Origin: a virus
DNA: 64,000 bases
Reading direction: 5' to 3' (one strand)
Virus record (IMG/VR): IMGVR_UViG_3300050821_002050
Location: 1-64,000 of that record
In this document: positions 3,841 to 57,052 of the stretch, piece after piece
How the letters are laid out: each line of letters starts with the position of its first letter
How positions within the stretch are numbered: the first letter of the stretch is position 1
Position numbers and translations under genes: made by a program
The notes under the pieces: model-generated
Database searches by the model: none
What the model saw: only the letters and a program-made list of their open reading frames with translations
Told to the model about the DNA's origin: nothing

Positions 3841-4282
3841 CATGGATGACTACCCGGTCGATACCGAAGGGCTCGACGGTCAACTGGTAGAGTACAAGGA
3901 GGATGTGGGCCCTGCCCCCATTCCTCCGCCTACTGGACTGAGTGACGAAGACGATGCGCGAGCGTACCTCGCGCAACGCTTCAACGGGCTGTTCTGTCCC
4001 AACTGCGAGTACTACTGGAACAGGGAAGACACCCACAGCTTCAAGCACACGCCTGACAGTGAGATCGTCAATGTTTGCCCCGGTTCTGAGTGTCGGGCCA
4101 TGGGCATCCCGCTGCAGGAGTTCGGTCAGGAGAGGGCGTACCGCTACAAGTACGGTGGCATGGACACACCTTCGGAAGGCAGACGACACAACTACAACCG
4201 AATAAGGGAAATTAGTATGGACCCCGTTGATCTGGGTGCACTCATGGGAATGCCAGCGATAGGCAGGGTGCGTTCAAAATGA
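3788..4282 (+). CDS. Zinc-ribbon-like hypothetical protein, 164 aa
   Basis: The proposed start at 3788 (MAFRKKPQTP) has GCGAGG upstream and overlaps the MazG-like gene by 53 bp. An ATG at 3842, just after that gene ends, is an alternative. The centre has FCPNCEYYW and CPGSEC, spaced like a metal-binding cysteine pair. The N-terminus is proline-rich. It overlaps the helicase start by ATGA. Confidence 0.6.
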   Translation: MAFRKKPQTPAPIRPVSNMDDYPVDTEGLDGQLVEYKEDVGPAPIPPPTGLSDEDDARAYLAQRFNGLFCPNCEYYWNREDTHSFKHTPDSEIVNVCPGSECRAMGIPLQEFGQERAYRYKYGGMDTPSEGRRHNYNRIREISMDPVDLGALMGMPAIGRVRSK

Positions 4283-7725: not shown

Positions 7726-10700
7726 ATGTCTGACCCAATCGTTGAGCGCTTCATGCGCGCCGTGTTGCCTTGGCCGGGGGAAGATGCCCCCGGCTGGGTC
7801 AACCTGCACTACGACTTCGTGCCGCAACCCGGTAAGAAGATGCTCAAGATTGTGCCCGGTTGGGCGTTCAAAACCATGGACGGCTTCCAGTCGATGGTAG
7901 CCTTCGGTTTGGCACGCCACACTGTCTACAGAAATTTTTGGCAGTGTATGTCTCTGCAGAAGGACAACGCTGGGCCGAACAAGACCGGCAAGAATTACAG
8001 GGCCCTTCGCAAGAAGGATAACGCGCTGTCGGTCAAGTCCCTCTGGCTCGACCTTGATCTCGACCCCGCCGACCCGAAGAAGTACCCGGACGAGGCGACC
8101 GCCATGAAGGCGATCCTCGTATTCTGTAAGAAGTACGCCCTGCCTGACCCTAGCTGCATCGTGCACTCGGGGAACGGCCTCCACATGTACTGGGCCAACG
8201 TAGCGGTGATGACCGTCGACGAGTGGAGGCCGCTCGCGGAGGGCTTCAAGGCACTGCTGCTGAAGGAAGGTATCAAGATCGACCCAGTGTGTACTGGTGA
8301 CGTGGCTAGGTTGATGCGTCTGCCAACGACCTTCAACAAGAAAGACCTTGCCGACCCAAAGCCAGTGGTACTGCTGACCAAGAATATTATCGAGCACGAT
8401 TTTTCCACCAAGCCATTTCAAGACCTGAAGCAATACGCAGTCATCGCGCCCCCTCCTGCTCCCAAGACCCAATCCGAGCATTTCGATGCCGCAGCCTTCA
8501 ATGGCGCGAAGCCGAGCCCGGTGTTCAAGGGGATCGACAACAACGACAAGTTATCGGCTGGGCTAGAGCGGCTGGTTCACCCCAAGCCCGTATTCGACCA
8601 GTGCCCTATGTACGACGAGGCGCTGAAGACTGGCGGCAACGGCTACAATCAGGGCCTGTGGATGCTGCAAATCCTCGGTACCACATTCATGGAGGGCGGA
8701 AATGACCTCGCACACGCGATCAGCAAAGGGGACGCGCGCTACACCCCGGACGGTACGGACCAGATGTTCAGTCGCAAGATGGCTGACAGAGACAGCTTCG
8801 GACTTGGATACCCATCATGCGCCACCTTTAAGGGCGCTGGCAGCAAGGCTTGCGAAGGGTGCCCGCTGCTCGCGAAGGGTAAGTCCCCGCTCAATCTAAG
8901 GCCATTTGTGCCGGTTACGGCCACCGTAACCTCCGCCACCCCGGCGCTCATCAATGGCACGGCTGACGACCCTGACGTATGGATGCCCTACGAAGAGGGC
9001 TTCGAGTTTAACGAGAACGGAGTGGTTTGTTCTGTGCATTCTCACACCGACAAAGAAGGCAACACGGATACATCGTCGATCCCGCTCTTTAAAGGATCGG
9101 TGCTGTCGGACTTTTGGATCAGTAAAGGTAGCCACCACGGTGAGGTGTGCCACTTCGTTTCATCTGCCGATAAGGGATGTCTGGTTCAAGTGGACCTACC
9201 TGTCGGCAATATTTTCGAACAGAGCTTTAAAAAATTTTTAGCTCTTGCCCGGGTGTTGCCAAATCCAAACGCACTGCCCAAAACAACGGAGACTTTTTTC
9301 GTGAGTGTCATAGAAAAATTGCGAGCAATCGCCGAAGCACAAACCGCCGTCCCATTTGGTTGGTACACCGAAAAAGGACAAATCAGAGGGTTCGCCTATG
9401 GTGGCAAGCTCTTCCTCGATGACAAGTCAGAACGGACGTGTGCCGGTGCTGACCCTGTCATCATGAAGAACTACCGTCCGCAGGGGAGCCTTGATCAATG
9501 GATGAAGGCGGCACGGTGTGTTACCGACCGTAAGCGCCCAGAACTCACAGTCATAATGCTCACGTCGTTCCTCTCGCCGCTGTTGCAGTTGGTAGGGCGA
9601 TCGACGATCCTCTTCTCGGCTTTTAGTCCTGACAGCGGTGGCGGTAAAACCTCTGCGTACAAGGCCGGGCTGAGCGTGTGGGGACATCCGACCCTGACGA
9701 AGGGAACGGAGAGCCAGACGAAGAACAACATCACGACGCAAATGAAGACTATCCGCAACCTTCCCTTCTACTGGGACGAGATCACGGACGACAAGTACCG
9801 GGAGATCGTGTGGAAAGTCATGCACGAGGCGGATGGTGGCAAAGAAAAGGGCCGTAACCTTGACGGCCAGCGCACACAAGACGCGGGGACGTGGATGCTG
9901 GCGATGCATTATGCCTCCAACCAGTCGCTTCTACAGTTCTTGCGTAAGCACAACCCCACAACCTCTGCATCGGCAAACCGGGTCTTGGAGTGGGAAGTCA
10001 AGAACATTAGTGGCGTACCGGGCGATCGCCCTCCGGGATGGATGCCGGATGCCGAGGCCACTACCCTTATGGACACCACCGAACGGAACTACGGTCTTAT
10101 GGGTCTCAAGTACGCCCGGTTTTTGGCGGACAATCACGAGCGCATCACGGCGGAATGTATCGCTAAGATCAACGAGGTGGAGGAAATCCTGCAGACCGGC
10201 AATGCCGAGCGCTACTGGATTTGCGGTGTCGGGCTTATGGTACAGGCGGCTAAGTACGCTCTGGAGTTGGGCCTTGATGTTAACCCAGCCGAGATCGAGG
10301 AGTTCATGTTCAAGGTCTATCGAGACAACTACAACTCCCGGGAGGAGTACTCCAGCGGTGGCGTCGTCGATCATAGCGAGGACGCTACTACTCGGTACCT
10401 CAAGAAACGCGAAGCGGAGGAGCGTGGAATTTGGTCCGATCATATAGCTCTCGGCAAGGGGAGAAGTGTGGCGAGACCGATGAACATCCTCAAGGGGCCG
10501 ACGCAGCCGAAGAACACACAGGGTGGCGTCGAGTTCCGGTTTGCGCTGGAGCAACAGATGCTCTTTATAGCACAACGGGACTTCACCGCGTGGCTGGAAA
10601 GCGAAAAATTATCGGAACCTGAAATCCGAAAAGGGCTCGCGAAGGTGTACGGCGACATTAAGGTGAAGAAGATCGCGCTGTTACGGGGATGGAAGCAGGA

Positions 10701-10845
10701 CGCAGGACGCGAGTATGTCCTACACATCCCGGTAAGGCCCGGTACCCCGCTGTGGGACTACATGGTGTCGGTATCGACGCAGGAAGAGCGTGCGCGGCTT
10801 GCGACCACTCTCCCCGTCGCGCTAGATGATGCCGATGCCGCTTGA
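7726..10845 (+). CDS. Primase-helicase, AEP-like and DUF927-like
   Basis: A 1039-aa replication protein. Residues 1-235 resemble an archaeo-eukaryotic-type primase/RepB-like domain: LWLDLDLDP gives the metal Asp residues, then VHSGNGLHMYW and DVARLMRLPTTFN. Residues 253-271 repeat the motif seen in the preceding protein. A cysteine motif (CATFKGAGSKACEGCPLL) is typical of phage primases. The C-terminal half is a DUF927/D5-like helicase with Walker A GGGKTSAY near 637 and Walker B FYWDEITDD near 680. The linker holds a VTATVT palindrome (8915-8929). It should prime and unwind DNA at the phage fork. It overlaps the next gene by 20 bp. Confidence 0.8.
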   Translation: MSDPIVERFMRAVLPWPGEDAPGWVNLHYDFVPQPGKKMLKIVPGWAFKTMDGFQSMVAFGLARHTVYRNFWQCMSLQKDNAGPNKTGKNYRALRKKDNALSVKSLWLDLDLDPADPKKYPDEATAMKAILVFCKKYALPDPSCIVHSGNGLHMYWANVAVMTVDEWRPLAEGFKALLLKEGIKIDPVCTGDVARLMRLPTTFNKKDLADPKPVVLLTKNIIEHDFSTKPFQDLKQYAVIAPPPAPKTQSEHFDAAAFNGAKPSPVFKGIDNNDKLSAGLERLVHPKPVFDQCPMYDEALKTGGNGYNQGLWMLQILGTTFMEGGNDLAHAISKGDARYTPDGTDQMFSRKMADRDSFGLGYPSCATFKGAGSKACEGCPLLAKGKSPLNLRPFVPVTATVTSATPALINGTADDPDVWMPYEEGFEFNENGVVCSVHSHTDKEGNTDTSSIPLFKGSVLSDFWISKGSHHGEVCHFVSSADKGCLVQVDLPVGNIFEQSFKKFLALARVLPNPNALPKTTETFFVSVIEKLRAIAEAQTAVPFGWYTEKGQIRGFAYGGKLFLDDKSERTCAGADPVIMKNYRPQGSLDQWMKAARCVTDRKRPELTVIMLTSFLSPLLQLVGRSTILFSAFSPDSGGGKTSAYKAGLSVWGHPTLTKGTESQTKNNITTQMKTIRNLPFYWDEITDDKYREIVWKVMHEADGGKEKGRNLDGQRTQDAGTWMLAMHYASNQSLLQFLRKHNPTTSASANRVLEWEVKNISGVPGDRPPGWMPDAEATTLMDTTERNYGLMGLKYARFLADNHERITAECIAKINEVEEILQTGNAERYWICGVGLMVQAAKYALELGLDVNPAEIEEFMFKVYRDNYNSREEYSSGGVVDHSEDATTRYLKKREAEERGIWSDHIALGKGRSVARPMNILKGPTQPKNTQGGVEFRFALEQQMLFIAQRDFTAWLESEKLSEPEIRKGLAKVYGDIKVKKIALLRGWKQDAGREYVLHIPVRPGTPLWDYMVSVSTQEERARLATTLPVALDDADAA
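8915..8929. repeat. Dispersed palindrome site 6
   Basis: TTACGG-CCA-CCGTAA, identical over 18 bp to site 5. It is in frame (PVTATVTSA) between the primase zinc motif and the helicase part. Confidence 0.9.
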
Positions 10846-12518: not shown

Positions 12519-15500
12519 TTACCAACCTTCGGTGGCCCGGTTTAGGATGTCTTCCCCGATGCCATAGCCGCCATGCTTTTCACGTAGACGGCTGTCCCGG
12601 GCATTAAGCTTCTGGGATTTCCGCTCCCAATTAGCGCCTGCGTCAGAGGGGTTTTTCACGTCGGCGGCTTGGTCCCGGATACCCTTGAGAGCGGCCTTGC
12701 CCACGCCTACCGGCCCCCCGGCATCCTCTGGGTTCTTCTTGTATGAGTTCGAGAGGGTGCCATAGGGGCTGACTGTGCCCCGCACCCAGTGCTCGGCCTC
12801 TTGCATACCTACCTTGAGCCCCGCACGGATACGTCCCTGCCTACCGCTATTTTCTCCGAAGGCGTCACTCACATCGCCGGGCTCGATGATGTTCTTGCCC
12901 CGGTAGTCGCGACCGCTAATTGCCTCGATCAGCGTGCTGATCAGCGGCGTCACAGTGAACGTGGACCGTAGCGCGCTCATGGGGTCTTCCTTACCCTGTG
13001 ACGCCCGGTAGAGATGGGACGGGATCGAGACGGGACCGCGCCGGGTCTGGGAGGCATCCTCATTGCCGGTGATGAACTGCGCGAGCTTGTCCATCATTGG
13101 GTAGATGGCGAACGTGAGGAAGCCCATTGCCAGCATCTTACCTGCCGCGTCGATGCGGTCGGCAGCGCTGCTCTTCGGATGGAAGGCATCCTTGATCATG
13201 TTCGCGTAGGCGTTCCACATGCCGTAGTGGTAGCGACCGAACGTGAACAGGTCGTTGCCACTCATCACCTTCGACAAGAAACGTCCAGCCTCACCGCTAC
13301 TCATGATGCGGTTGGGCACTTGGTAATTCGGGATGTCACGCTCAGCATGGATGATGGCTTGCTCCGTGGACATGCCCTTGCGCTCCAACTCCAGAATGCG
13401 CTGGGTCAGGAACACGTCGTTCGCGTGCCACATCATGCGTGAAGACCAATCATAAAATTTCTCGCCTAGTGCCTTCGGGTCGACGCCGATAATGTCGGCA
13501 ACGCGACGCCAGCCCACGCCCTTTGGCCCGTTGGCCATCTCTGTACCGACACGACTGGCGAGACCTTGTGCGAAGTTGCGGGTGTTGACGCCGGGATAGA
13601 TCAACCCCGCGCCGGAACGCATGAGACGTTTCTGTAGGTCATCTTGGTTCCAGACGGACTTGATCGCCTTCGCCCCGTCGACGATGAGCGAGTGCAATCC
13701 TGCCGGGGTGATGTTGTCCCAGCCGCGACCGACGAACCAGTGAGTGCCGACGTTGGCGATGTGCGCGGTCGGCATCCAGAACAGCAAGCGTGTGACGTTG
13801 TGGTTCAGGTTGCGCCACCAGTCATAAGTGTCGAAGCCTGACTTGGCGTAGCTGTCGAACACTTCCTTCATCTTCGGGTCCATGAAGATCGGCTTGCCGT
13901 CCGCGCCCTTCAGGTTGGGGAAGTCGGTCTGCTTCCAGCCCCGGTCGTTCGCGAGCTTGCCGTCGGTGGTGGACATCTTCCCGAACTCAGGCGAGTTGAT
14001 GATCTTGTTCAGGAGCTTCAGGTTGCGGAAGCGCTGCCCCATGAGCGAGTTGGTCAAGAATGCAGAGAGCGCCGCGTTGTGCTGGTACTTCAACATCGCT
14101 GGCGTGTTGCCGAGACCGCGTGCGTGCTTCTCCTTCTCGGAGGCCATGGCCTCGCGCATCGTGAAGGTCTGCTTCGCGCCGGTCTTCGGGTCGGTGTAGA
14201 CGTAGGGCTTGTTGGCCTCGAACTCGAACTTCGGGTCCCTGATCTTCTGGCTCTTGCCGTTGCGCCAGATGTTGTAGCCGTTGTCGCGCTCTTGGATGAT
14301 ATGACGGTGGCCCGATCTATCTTCCAGCGCGAAGTAGTTACGGTTGTTGGACATCGAGGCGGACACCGTGAGACCGTTATATTCGGGGCTCGTCGGGTCG
14401 TCCTTGTTCTTGAGGAGGTTGTACTCGCTCGTTTCACCGTCAGAGAGATGGGAGATATGGTCGTCAACGTCGCGCGCCGCGTTGTTAGGCGCGAAGATGT
14501 CCCCGCCTTCCTTGTAGAGCTTGTTCTCATCGAACACCTCCTTGAGGTGCTCGTTGTAGAGCCGCTGATCTTCGGCGGACAGGCTCTCAAGGTTGGTCTT
14601 GCCCTTCTGCTTGCCCGGCAGATCAACGTGAGCGCTGTCGGCGTCGCGAGCTTCGAAGATGCGCCGCTGTTGTGCGGTCTTCGATTTGGCGTCGGGCTCC
14701 TTGCTGTCGTGCCACATCGCATCGCTCGCTTGGAACAGCGCGGTGTTCGCAGCCTTGTTGGTCTGCTCGTTGGTGTGGAACATCTTCTGCAGGTCACGCA
14801 GCCATTTGCCGTGGTTGTTCAGCTCGTCCGCCGTCAGTGAGCGGGAATAGCTGCTGTCCCGGTGGGAGATATTCGCGCCCACCTTGCTGCCAGACCACTT
14901 GGAGTTCAGGAAGCGCTTCATCAGCGCCTTCACGTCGTGGCCGATCTGGTTGATGTTGAGCGACGCCTTCTCGTCGGTGCCGAACTCCTTCGCGAGGCGA
15001 GCCAGTTCGTTGGCCCTGCCGATGGCATTGCGCTTATCGTCGGCTGCCTGCGCCGCCTCGTACTTGGCCCGCTCCTCCGGGGTGACGTTCATCTTGGCGC
15101 GGAAGCGAGCTTCTTCGAGCGCTGCTGCACGCTCCTCGGCTTCTCTTGCCTTCTTGGACGACTTCAGCGCTTCATCTTCGCCCTCCTTGGTCACATCCTT
15201 GGTCTTCTTCGGACGCTCGGCATTGTCGGCCTTGTTCTTGATGGCCTTCTCGACCACGCCCTCCGCGATCGCCTCGGGGTCGACCTTGGTGTGCTCGAAG
15301 TCGCCTTCGGGGTAGTTCTTCGCCAGCCACTCCTTGTCGCGATTGCGCAAGGCATCATAGGGATCAGGACGTACCTCGGTGCCTTCTTTATAGTTCTGCC
15401 CAAGCCACTCTTTCTCCTCGCGCTCAAGGCGATCGTGGTAGGTCTCTTCAGTGTTGCCACGCTGCTCCATTGCCACCTTGGCTTCCGCCTTGTCGACGGC

Positions 15501-48600: not shown

Positions 48601-48962
48601 GAAATTTTGTCCTTACTAGTCGGACACTGCTTCAGGTCTTTGATGACAGCACTCACGACGCCCTGCTGTGCCTCGATCATTTGCTTCATCTGGTTGTAGG
48701 TCACGTCGAACGCTTGCTCGTTCAGCTCGCCGTTGTGGTAGCAAGTGTGAACGGAGTTCAGCATCCACATCTTGGAGCACTGCGCGTAGAGGATCAGCGC
48801 CTGTGTCAGCGCGCCACTGAAGTACTCGCGCGTGGCTTTGCGGTCGTAGAGATCGTAGATCGTCTGGATCGCGCCCTGTTGTATCTCTTCGATGTTGTCA
48901 GTGCGTACTGGACGGTTCAACAACCGGTTGATTTCGTCTTCATCGAGGATTGGGTCGCTCAT
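48597..48962 (-). CDS. Hypothetical helical protein, 121 aa
   Basis: All-helical by composition (IEEIQQGAIQTIYDLYD; FDVTYNQMKQMIEAQQGV), ATGA overlaps on both sides. It may be a small terminase-region or packaging protein. No family recognised. Confidence 0.6.
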   Translation of the reverse strand: MSDPILDEDEINRLLNRPVRTDNIEEIQQGAIQTIYDLYDRKATREYFSGALTQALILYAQCSKMWMLNSVHTCYHNGELNEQAFDVTYNQMKQMIEAQQGVVSAVIKDLKQCPTSKDKIS

Positions 48963-49537
48963 ACCTCGGCCTCCGCCCAGTGCGTGAGGATGTGAATGGC
49001 CTTCTCACGATCAAGTAGAGGGATGCGATAGCCTCGTCCCCACACCGTTTTGATCGTAATTTCGTGGGTTTTTAGCTTTTTTCGCAGGTGGCAGATGATT
49101 ACGTCGACCATCTTGGGGTCGGTGGGGGGCCGGTTCTCTCCGGGCCTCATTTGCTCGATGACGAGGTGAAGTTGGGCCTTCATTACCTCGTTACGCTTCA
49201 GTAACACTCCGAGGATTGCAGCTTCTAGGCGAGTGCACCGAAAACATCTGGCGCATGCCATCTGCAGTGCTTCGTCGCTCTCCAATGCAGTGCCATTGAA
49301 TGCTGCACGCTGACCGCGTGTGCTTCCGAGAGGCCAATCATTTTTGGGGAGTTCGACGATGGTACCGCGCTGGACCGCGTCTTTGAGTATTTCGTACACT
49401 TCTTCCGAGGGCAACCGCACACTTCGGGCGATTGCCCTTACTGGTATGCCCTCGTCGGCCATCCTGACTGCTGTTTGGTCGACGATTGGATCGCGCTGTG
49501 GTTCCTCGAACGGAACCGTTTCCGCTTCTGAGTTCAT
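48959..49537 (-). CDS. CtrA-like DNA-binding regulator lacking a receiver domain
   Basis: 192 aa. Residues 125-175 form an OmpR/PhoB-type winged helix: DPKMVDVIICHLRKKL and IKTVWGRGYRI closely follow the CtrA pattern (KIIDVFICKLRKKL, IETVWGRGYVL) as I know it. The N-terminal 80 residues are not a phosphorylatable receiver; they look like another helix-turn-helix (VRMADEGIPVRAIARSVRL, SEEVYEILKDAVQRG). A CxxC pair (CARCFRC) lies between. CtrA binds TTAA-N7-TTAA, and that box is repeated at late promoters here, so this protein is a natural activator or modulator of phage late genes. Start supported by context; no strong ribosome site. Confidence 0.75.
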   Translation of the reverse strand: MNSEAETVPFEEPQRDPIVDQTAVRMADEGIPVRAIARSVRLPSEEVYEILKDAVQRGTIVELPKNDWPLGSTRGQRAAFNGTALESDEALQMACARCFRCTRLEAAILGVLLKRNEVMKAQLHLVIEQMRPGENRPPTDPKMVDVIICHLRKKLKTHEITIKTVWGRGYRIPLLDREKAIHILTHWAEAEV

Positions 49538-51250: not shown

Positions 51251-51512
51251 CTCGTATCTCCGACGGTGGCACGGTTGGGGGGTATGCCACCGCAGAGACA
51301 ACCCAGAGGGGTGTGAAGAAGTAGTCCTCGTTATCGAGAGGAGGGATCGGGGTGCTTCCGCTGTTGACGAGAATAGGGGGGCTATTCTCGTCATTTGACG
51401 CGGAGAATGGTGGCCGTACATCCGGGCCAACCGGTCTCGTCAAAAGCACAACGATCCCGATGACCAGCGCGATGCCGATCAGGAAGGGGTAGTTCTGCCT
51501 TAACCACGCCAT
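51087..51512 (-). CDS. Membrane-anchored protein with long overlapping end, 141 aa
   Basis: MAWLRQNYPFLIGIALVIG with one N-terminal helix, then a Pro/Ser-rich stretch (FFTPLWVVSAVAYPP). The last 55 residues lie over the start of the next gene and are Arg/Pro-rich, probably a tolerated run-on. GGAG precedes the ATG. It is the first gene after promoters P51a and P51b. Confidence 0.5.
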   Translation of the reverse strand: MAWLRQNYPFLIGIALVIGIVVLLTRPVGPDVRPPFSASNDENSPPILVNSGSTPIPPLDNEDYFFTPLWVVSAVAYPPTVPPSEIRDADHNCSPVPPSDGGRELLPSVPRGSSVQRPSHVRVPPRANRPRPVESQRPIFK

Positions 51513-51568: not shown

Positions 51569-51751
51569 GAGCGTTCGTTGGCGGCCACTAAGGACCGTCG
51601 CTGGTCGGGGTAAGCCTGCGTGCCACCACCATACCCACCAACCGACCCAGAGCTACATGCCTTGCCGGGCATATGGTTCTCGGGTCCCGCACCACCACTT
51701 TCTTACCGTCCTACCGTCCCAGAGACCTCTCTGGCGGCGGCTTTCGGCGTT

Positions 51752-51906: not shown

Positions 51907-52164
51907 TTAGCTCTTGGCTTTTCGAGCTACTTTGTCTTCGTTCGCCTTGATGAAGGCTTCCACCTTCCCTGCCTTGATGAAGTCGATGATCCGCTCCCAC
52001 TGCGAAGCGTACAGGGAAAGCGGCCAGCGACCGCCGTGGTACATGCAAACCGTTCCCTTTTGGCCGAGCTTCAGGGTTACGGCAGTCTCATTCTCTGCCT
52101 TCATCTTGGCATTCTCGGCAGTCAAACGAGCGATTTCAGCTTCCATTGCTTTCAGGTCAGCCAT
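51907..52164 (-). CDS. Small coiled-coil protein, 85 aa
   Basis: A coiled coil (LKAMEAEIARLTAENAKMKA) leads into a compact domain (LKLGQKGTVCMYHGGRWPLS, WERIIDFIKAGKVEAFI) that recurs in small phage proteins. It is the first leftward gene after the control region, with a leader rich in GGCCGG repeats (52195-52230). Function unknown. Confidence 0.65.
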   Translation of the reverse strand: MADLKAMEAEIARLTAENAKMKAENETAVTLKLGQKGTVCMYHGGRWPLSLYASQWERIIDFIKAGKVEAFIKANEDKVARKAKS

Positions 52165-52194
52165 TTGGTTTCAAGCTCCAGTTGAGGTCAAAAC

Positions 52195-52230
52195 CGGCCG
52201 GAAAACTTGGCCGGCAATCTGGCCGGATCG
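52195..52230 (-). promoter_or_regulatory. GGCCGG-repeat leader
   Basis: Four CCGG-containing copies of CCGGCC/GGCCGG within 36 bp upstream of the leftward gene. They can form alternative hairpins in its message. Confidence 0.35.
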
Positions 52231-52306
52231 GGCAAACACGGCATGGCCTACTCCCTGAACCACGGTCCTACAGTACCGCTGGGAATGTCGGTGCTAAGTC
52301 GAGCGC

Positions 52307-52327
52307 ACGGTAGAACGGTAGTACCGT
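52307..52327. repeat. ACGGTA half-site cluster
   Basis: ACGGTA-GA-ACGGTA-G-TACCGT: a direct pair and an inverted pair (52315-52327), in the control region. The half-site resembles the inner part of the dispersed palindrome. Confidence 0.55.
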
Positions 52328-52353
52328 AGAGGTGCGCTATGCGTTTTTTGCAT

Positions 52354-52384
52354 GACATTTGACGGCCATTTGGCGTGTCATTTG
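52354..52384. repeat. Iteron-like pair
   Basis: GACATTTG (52354-52361) and GTCATTTG (52377-52384), with CCATTTGG between. Same family as the triplets below. Confidence 0.5.
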
Positions 52385-52411
52385 GAACTCTCGACAAGCC
52401 ATTGATACTAT

Positions 52412-52426
52412 TACGGTTTTACCGTA
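52412..52426. repeat. Inverted repeat TACGGT-TTT-ACCGTA
   Basis: A perfect 15-bp inverted repeat in the control region, with the same length and spacer as the dispersed palindrome but its arms shifted by one base. Confidence 0.6.
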
Positions 52427-52435
52427 TCACCGTTT

Positions 52436-52459
52436 CAAATGTCCAAATGTCCAAATGTT
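52436..52459. repeat. Iteron-like tandem triplet
   Basis: Three head-to-tail 8-bp units CAAATGTC, CAAATGTC, CAAATGTT. Confidence 0.7.
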
Positions 52460-52560
52460 TTTGATACCCCGACACCCTGTGACCGTGGAAGGTGGTACCT
52501 CTACTATTTTGCCTCTTGCACGGTACGACGGTCGCACAGGAGCTGCAGCAGGGAAAATTT

Positions 52561-52660
52561 CTCAGTAACTGTCTAAATGATTGATAATATTATATTTTAT
52601 GGGATCGTAGCGTTTTTCAATGGTATTTTAGTAGAGATACCAATTGAGGTGGATATTCCG
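52561..52660. other. AT-rich core of candidate origin
   Basis: About 65-70% A+T, including ATAATATTATATTTTAT, in a GC-rich genome. It lies between oppositely oriented iteron-like triplets. The whole gap 52165-52876 holds no convincing gene. Confidence 0.5.
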
Positions 52661-52686
52661 TCAGAACCGGGGGGGGACTATCTCAG

Positions 52687-52709
52687 GACATTTGGCATTT
52701 GGACATTTA
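52687..52709. repeat. Iteron-like triplet, inverted
   Basis: GACATTTG, GCATTTG, GACATTTA: the reverse complement of the triplet at 52436-52459 on the other side of the AT-rich core. Confidence 0.65.
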
Positions 52710-52876
52710 GCGCTCGATCCCACCCTGTCATGCACTGACGGTATGCGCCGCGAGGCCGCATGCTGCGCGTCAAATCTGCCCATCCGATCGCACTGAGGCG
52801 CGGCGGCCCGATCCGGCCAAGGTCGGCGCGCGCCGCCATTGTGGCTGCAACGTGCCTTCATTGGAGCTAGACGGAA

Positions 52877-53134
52877 ATGACATCCTTCACTCGGAAGTTG
52901 CATGTGAGGAACCCAAAGGCTGCAGCATTGATCGAGCAGTCTCAACAGTTCGAACACCGTCTGATCTACGGTAAGAACACGCAATTGGCCGCGTTCACGC
53001 CAGCGTGGAACCCAGTGTCCAAGACGTTCGGTAAGCGTACCCTGCCACCTTCGGCAGCTCATGCCTGCAGAGAGCGTTGCGGCCATCCTGCCTGCAAACA
53101 GGGCTGTGTCCTGTTCGTCCAACAAGGAGCCTAG
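52877..53134 (+). CDS. Hypothetical early protein, 85 aa
   Basis: First rightward gene after the control region. ACGGA lies just before the ATG. Basic, with three cysteines and a His near the C-terminus (CRERCGHPACKQGC), which could bind zinc. A GC-rich hairpin (about 52804-52838) precedes it. Confidence 0.5.
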   Translation: MTSFTRKLHVRNPKAAALIEQSQQFEHRLIYGKNTQLAAFTPAWNPVSKTFGKRTLPPSAAHACRERCGHPACKQGCVLFVQQGA

Positions 53135-53333: not shown

Positions 53334-53527
53334 GCAAATCCCATCGCACTGCCGGCCTTGATCAACTCGGCCCAAAGCACGCCTACAAGACGCCCACCTT
53401 CCACAACTTCTACAAACACTGGCCCAAGGCGGGAATGTCGATCGCGTCCAGAGCAGCGCTGAGCACGCGGAACCGCAAGGTCAAGGTCACTCTGCCCTGC
53501 CTCAAGATACTGGAGACAATGAAATGA
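53330..53527 (+). CDS. Hypothetical basic early protein, 65 aa
   Basis: Very basic (MSKSHRTAG; STRNRKVKVTL). The start overlaps the previous stop and its stop overlaps the next start. No family recognised. Confidence 0.55.
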   Translation: MSKSHRTAGLDQLGPKHAYKTPTFHNFYKHWPKAGMSIASRAALSTRNRKVKVTLPCLKILETMK

Positions 53528-53745
53528 GCTACAACGCAGCAAAGCGCGCACAGATGTTGATTGCTCTGTGCGAAACCATCCTCGAAGCAGTCGGGGAATG
53601 CCCGGACGGAGCGCCATCAGGGTCAGTCTATGCCGCCTTGATGGGGTTCGGGCTCAGCCTCGAAAGCTACCAAATGCTGATCAACACGCTCGTTGCAGCG
53701 AAGAAGATCAGGGTCGCGAACAACCTCTTGTTCGCTGTTCACTGA
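53524..53745 (+). CDS. Winged-helix-like early protein, 73 aa
   Basis: Helical with a final strand pair: AKRAQMLIALCETILEAV, SGSVYAALMGFGLSLESYQ, LINTLVAAKKIRVANNLL. The order of helices resembles a small winged helix-turn-helix. A terminator follows directly. Confidence 0.55.
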   Translation: MSYNAAKRAQMLIALCETILEAVGECPDGAPSGSVYAALMGFGLSLESYQMLINTLVAAKKIRVANNLLFAVH

Positions 53746-53759
53746 AACGGTCACACGGT

Positions 53760-55814: not shown

Positions 55815-55888
55815 ATCGAGGCCCTAGCACGGTATCACGGTCGACAGGTGGTCAATATTGATCACAAAACAGAGAAAGGAGCAGTACC

Positions 55889-56681: not shown

Positions 56682-57052
56682 TGGGATGGGGTCAGAAGAA
56701 CGCACGGTTCTACGGTACGCTGCGCGGCCAGACCAATAACATGGTTGGCCGGTGTGGCGATCGTGGTGGCATGCTCATCACTGCACAGAGCCACTCAGGC
56801 GACATCCGCATCCAGACGTATGTCAGCAGTATCGAAAACGAGGATTGTGTGCGCATTGTCGCTTGCGCCCACACGACGAAGGCAACGGATGGTCACGGTG
56901 GTGGTCATTCGGTGGTCCTCTATGACGGTCCCATCAATCGACTGCTGAAGGAAAACAAGGACCTGCTGCACCTATTGGCAGAGGACGCATTCAGAAAGGA
57001 GTGTGACTATGACGGAGCATTATGCAGTGCAGGCGGCGAATATCATCGCTGA
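56681..57052 (+). CDS. Hypothetical early protein, 123 aa
   Basis: A TGATG start overlap. Contains GQKNARFYGTLRG and a His/Gly segment (TKATDGHGGGHSVVLYDGP). Mixed beta. Its 3' end overlaps the next gene by 44 bp. Confidence 0.55.
   Translation: MGWGQKNARFYGTLRGQTNNMVGRCGDRGGMLITAQSHSGDIRIQTYVSSIENEDCVRIVACAHTTKATDGHGGGHSVVLYDGPINRLLKENKDLLHLLAEDAFRKECDYDGALCSAGGEYHR

Follow-up and report, generated by a model that had tools for sequence, protein, structure and literature searches.

A candidate iteron replication origin and its proposed PrimPol-Rep initiator in an environmental phage family

Rep proteins of SaPIs read iterons through their C-terminal domain, apparently as two hexamers, and SaPI origins adjoin rep; these points come from PMC7581432, which cites Ubeda 2007 for the iteron origin of SaPIbov1 Rep. 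The same source describes binding of direct repeats of a putative origin by the isolated C-terminal domain of Cch2. Two further proteins are described in PMC4234260: the alpha protein of phage P4 (ori/crr), a single polypeptide that recognizes repeats through a winged helix and also carries out unwinding and priming, and ORF904 of pRN1, which joins an archaeo-eukaryotic PrimPol, a helicase, and a C-terminal winged helix.

Here we analyze a gene-free gap in an environmental phage genome that is very probably an iteron replication origin, with a PrimPol-Rep fusion encoded by the phage itself as the likely reader of the repeats; it lies in a divergent regulatory hub with operator-like ACGGTNNN repeats. 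Like SaPIbov1 Rep (8tch), the proposed initiator has a DUF927-type AAA+ helicase, a C-terminal winged-helix domain, and short repeats as candidate binding sites; unlike SaPIbov1 Rep, it carries a PrimPol fused to its helicase, its gene lies far from the origin, and the setting is a phage genome of roughly 68 kb and not a satellite island. By both sequence and fold, the helicase of SCCmec Cch (5dgk) belongs to the same family. Cch2 differs in having a helicase of the Primase_Cterm/D5_N type, and with both Cch and Cch2 the primase is a separate protein. The combination of repeat binding, unwinding, and priming proposed here is that of P4 alpha; however, the P4 primase is of the Toprim type and that of the phage of the archaeo-eukaryotic type, and the helicase families differ. 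ORF904 has the same three-part make-up as the phage protein, but the origin of pRN1 is a stem-loop lacking iterons, and the ORF904 helicase belongs to SF3.

Repeats and AT-rich DNA in a divergent gap

The phage record is 68,625 bp long, and the window (the whole stretch of DNA analyzed, 64,000 nt) covers its bases 1-64000. Minus-strand genes, including those for portal, terminase, and glycosyltransferase, extend from about 51.9 kb down to 12 kb; plus-strand genes extend from 52.9 kb to the record end and then from base 1 to about 11 kb. A 669-aa protein encoded in the tail of the record reads as family-A polymerase-like. Contigs of two relatives end inside genes (G015 within the primase-helicase, G036 within the terminase), and hence circular or circularly permuted maps fit. 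No DNA-level match to this phage was found among GenBank phages; protein comparisons place it closest, among cultured phages, to Rhizobium phage RHph_TM3_14A and its kin. Searches for Rfam families and tRNA returned none, and no origin for this phage group is described in the literature searched, which was that available without subscription.

The original prediction had placed a candidate origin in a gene-free gap between divergent blocks. Such a gap is indeed present, bounded by an ORF at 51907-52164 on the minus strand and another at 52877-53134 on the plus strand. The former encodes an 85-aa protein with the motif KG..S.Y..G..P...Y..QW, and a similar protein is encoded beside the gap in G036. 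We found nine GACATTTGG-like units in the gap, all of one 8-mer family (at most one mismatch), arranged as three clusters of three (Table 1). In 300 dinucleotide-preserving shuffles of the gap, nine units were never reached (0/300; mean 3.5, maximum 6 for any 8-mer family). At least nine sites of the family also occur in five other 712-bp windows of the genome; all five begin within the structural-gene block (21-42 kb), a region in which relatives carry coding repeats.

Table 1. Positions, on the record, of the gap, its repeats, and the genes discussed
Feature	Position	Strand	Remarks
Gene-free gap, candidate origin and regulatory hub	52165-52876		712 bp; same gap in nine relatives
Iteron cluster 1: GACATTTGA (52354), GCCATTTGG (52365), GTCATTTGG (52377)	52354-52385	+	spacing 11 and 12 bp
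Iteron cluster 2: CAAATGTC CAAATGTC CAAATGTT as the plus strand reads	52435-52459	-	units at 52435, 52443, 52451; 8-bp tandem period
Iteron cluster 3: GACATTTGG (52687), GGCATTTGG (52694), GACATTTAG (52702)	52687-52710	+	opposite orientation to cluster 2
AT-rich candidate unwinding element	52558-52657		71% A+T; top 100-bp window of the 64 kb
Motif 2 array ACGGTAGA ACGGTAGT ACCGTAG	52307-52329	+	positional counterpart of AAGGTACTACCTTGATACCTT in L004, L005
Motif 2 array ACGGTTTTACCGTATCACCGT	52413-52433	-	continues in 8-bp register into iteron cluster 2
Motif 2 pair ACGGTACGACGGT	52520-52532	+	
Motif 2 pair outside gap	51263-51275	+	
Motif 2 pair outside gap	51705-51717	-	
Motif 2 pair	53747-53759	+	directly past the stop of ORF 53524-53745
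Motif 2 pair, early region	55829-55841	+	
Motif 2 pair, early region	56704-56716	+	
PrimPol-DUF927 helicase-winged helix protein, 1039 aa, proposed initiator	7726-10845	+	
Its helicase part, about residues 440-850, DUF927, Walker A/B	9043-10275	+	co-varies with iteron word
Its C-terminal domain, residues 840-1039	10243-10842	+	part matching the C-terminal domains of SaPI Rep and Cch: model residues 42-178, about 881-1017
Regulator, 192 aa, N-terminal helix-turn-helix-like part and OmpR-type winged helix	48959-49537	-	near terminase in all relatives

Tandem units predicted at 52436-52459 and an inverted triplet at 52687-52709 correspond to clusters 2 and 3, each with three units in the orientations listed. 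At 52354-52384 a pair had been proposed; the repeats are there, but they number three. The predicted AT-rich stretch is likewise flanked by repeats, lying between clusters 2 and 3, and is the most AT-rich in the window. Clustered short repeats beside an AT-rich element, by which an iteron origin is recognized, are thus found together in the gap. A turn of GC skew at the gap had been named beforehand as a check; the cumulative skew of this genome does not turn there. Turns are mixed among the relatives, and GC skew is uninformative for placing the origin.

A second repeat family, overlooked in the original prediction, occurs both in and out of the gap. This motif 2 is ACGGTNNN in 8-bp register, and it is dispersed through the early region. 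ACGGTNNNACGGT pairs occur 11 times in the genome (51263, 51705, 52307, 52421, 52520, 53747, 55829, 56704, 67807, 14365, and 31029), compared with none for the reversed pattern used as a control; those at 14365 and 31029 are probably coding chance. Relatives use AAGGTNNNACCTT in place of ACGGTNNNACGGT. G001 and G002 have AAGGTACTACCTTGATACCTT at the corresponding gap edge, so that the 8-bp design is kept and the word differs. Because motif 2 is dispersed, unlike the GACATTT units, which in this genome are confined to the gap, it is operator-like and probably represents transcription operators of some regulator. The gap would then also be a regulatory hub and, since operators of the dispersed type lie in it, not solely an origin.

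Relatives were gathered by scans with the terminase and with the tandem word. In this genome (G000) and in nine of nine colinear relatives (G001, G002, G010, G011, G012, G013, G014, G015, and G018), a single gap contains both the best repeat cluster in non-coding DNA and the most AT-rich 100 bp of the genome. This common layout supports the predicted reading as an iteron origin. The words differ: GACATTT is used by G000, G001, G010, G011, and G018, as well as by fragments L029 and L096, while G013 has GGACACTTA, G014 GGCATTT, G002 TAATTGGTC, G012 TAGTCAAA, and G015 CAGCTAATA. Varying words in one place, each repeated within its own genome, may be the trace of a binding site changing in step with the protein that reads it. 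Two more distant phages carry other sets: AATGGTGGGGA arrays in G020, with four repeats on each side of an AT core in mirror orientation, and AGCATTTC repeats in G036. In the cultured relative RHph_TM3_14A, a gap nearby (19.35-20.1 kb) is AT-rich and contains repeats, but no clear iteron arrays were found in it. In the comparison of distant phages, the relatives of L029 are contigs without a primase or without the gap.

The AT-rich centre of G013, G020, G022, G024, L029, L090, and L094 (more weakly, G015) contains GTTTATGTTTTGTTC, which is missing from most GACATTT phages. It resembles, with one change, an alphaproteobacterial LexA box (GTTC-N7-GTTC).

The primase-helicase and its co-variation with the iteron word

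The original prediction suggested the primase-helicase as a partner of the repeats and recognized no initiator with a known iteron-binding domain. The suggested partner gained support. The N-terminal half of the 1039-aa protein is a PrimPol by its D.D and SG.G.H.YW motifs and by a fold match to 6zp9; the protein also has a cysteine cluster. Its second half contains Walker A and B motifs in a DUF927 AAA+ domain, which marks the Rep/Cch family. Profile searches matched Cch with an E value of 5.6e-15 (5dgk) and, with 7.6e-13, the SaPI protein 8tch, the PDB title of which names an initiation-of-replication protein. A full-length structure model was poor (pLDDT 62), and the C-terminal domain was therefore modelled separately; the model of the last 200 residues reached pLDDT 83. 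Its best match was SaPIbov1 Rep (8tch 452-561; Z 8.4, rmsd 3.1, 102 residues), followed by the pCW3 oriT-binding protein (Z 7.3) and the C-terminal domain of Cch (5dgk; Z 6.8, 92 residues), with unrelated rows at Z about 4. The model thus predicts a C-terminal winged-helix DNA-binding domain, the other mark of the family, and one that matches that of SaPI Rep. An origin adjoining the helicase gene, also found in that family, is not seen here, as gap and gene are about 23 kb apart on a circular map. Nor does the protein have the Toprim primase and particular helicase of the P4 alpha family, its primase having the PrimPol (AEP) fold of 6zp9 and its helicase being of the DUF927 type. We conclude that the 1039-aa primase-helicase is most likely the initiator for the gap. 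Its homologue in RHph_TM3_14A (MN988472, 42227-45379) is annotated as 'putative integrase'.

Co-variation was scored by labelling the five GACATTT genomes against the five others, labels chosen after the iterons had been seen, in 60-column windows along 23 conserved proteins (564 windows). Perfect separation was obtained in 5 of the 564, all within residues 681-924 of the primase-helicase, against values of 0.36-0.74 for windows in the first 430 residues of that protein. As a whole protein, the portal protein scored similarly to the primase-helicase. In a tree of the helicase/C-terminal half, the GACATTT phages group together (100/100 support, branch 0.92), and the primase half is unresolved. 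C-terminal identity is 36-92% among GACATTT phages and 17-29% to the others, a split that the primase half does not have; the outsider ranking highest is G013, the word of which is one change from GACATTT. Backbone trees often put G002 among the GACATTT phages, and the iteron grouping is rejected by the OmpR-type regulator (p 0.021) and by a 437-aa protein (p 0.006). Judged from these sequences, the helicase/winged-helix half appears to follow the iteron type across ten phages, whereas the primase half and the OmpR-type regulator do not, with one or two independent swaps (mainly G002) behind the pattern. G019 shares its C-half with G002 on a contig without the gap, and AATTGGTC-like iterons are predicted for it.

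A more far-reaching reading, which we consider rather doubtful, is that the iteron word and the helicase/winged-helix half form a matched lock and key, being swapped or drifting together independently of the primase half and of the remaining genome, and that the same-register operators beside the iterons act as an either-or switch linking initiation with transcription.

Other readings of the repeats

It is improbable that the repeats are transcription operators only, through which a regulator would switch divergent promoters, early and late, the AT-rich stretch being promoter DNA. Such a view would fit the position of the gap as a divergent promoter hub, a weak sigma-70-like match at 52559-52588, and the scatter of motif 2, which is dispersed as operators are; the GACATTT units, however, keep to the gap. 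Short-unit arrays are also typical of ribbon-helix-helix operators, and two units lie between genes of this type in L030. The best regulator (48959-49537) argues against the operator view, as its recognition-helix region is identical in phages with different iterons and its tree, as noted above, rejects the iteron grouping; the protein that does co-vary is a helicase of an initiator family. On the same two grounds this regulator was rejected as reader of the iterons, although it is a possible reader of motif 2. A ribbon-helix-helix reader, hinted at by L030, was also dismissed, since no protein of that type was found to go with the arrays of these phages. The L030 units are two copies of CAAATGTC (4021-4036) between ParD-like and NikA-like genes.

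Repeats in non-coding gaps occur at packaging and partition sites too, yet a pac site or centromere, bound by the small terminase or a ParB-like protein, is very improbable here, as differences in iteron word across the phages are not mirrored in the terminase large subunit (AUC 0.68) and no partition protein was found in the families scanned, which covered part of the ORFs.

Proposed initiation and similar arrays elsewhere

If the gap is an iteron origin, replication would start there as follows. The C-terminal winged-helix domain of the 1039-aa protein would bind the GACATTTGG-type iterons, and helicase rings would assemble on either side of the AT-rich stretch. This stretch would melt, with outward unwinding after it, and the N-terminal PrimPol would prime at the gap for the family-A DNA polymerase of the phage. 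The ACGGTNNN operators in the gap would set divergent transcription. Several observations count against this proposal: the initiator gene lies at the distance given above if the map is circular, the GC skew of this genome does not turn at the gap, clear iteron arrays were not found in RHph_TM3_14A, the co-variation has the small number of swaps, the late choice of labels, and the portal score described above, and the unrelated phages L020 and L021 have the iteron word without the C-terminal domain. No homology to that domain was found for proteins of L020, L021, L030, and L046.

The analysis names a likely origin and initiator for an environmental phage family in which about 400 terminase relatives occur. 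Ten phages, which together offer at least six different iteron words and winged-helix domains that can be aligned, form a natural data set on how this initiator family reads its repeats, and the same set can be used to test how initiators and origins come to switch partners.

Bacterial genomes with three tandem units were set aside, being mostly unrelated Bacteroidota 8-bp satellites; in L034-L036, L038, L043, and L044 these are long, intergenic, and of the TTGGACAT/TTGGACTT type. In the unrelated phage L020 (3676-3865), the same word, as CAAATGTCC, occurs in opposed pairs. A second repeat, CCAGAAGT, accompanies them; AT-rich DNA lies alongside, and an NrS-1-like PrimPol-helicase gene adjoins. 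The site is possibly a convergent origin. Four tandem CAAATGTC units lie upstream of genes in L021 (542-573), an unrelated phage contig, and in L046 (6806-6841), a Halomonas genome.
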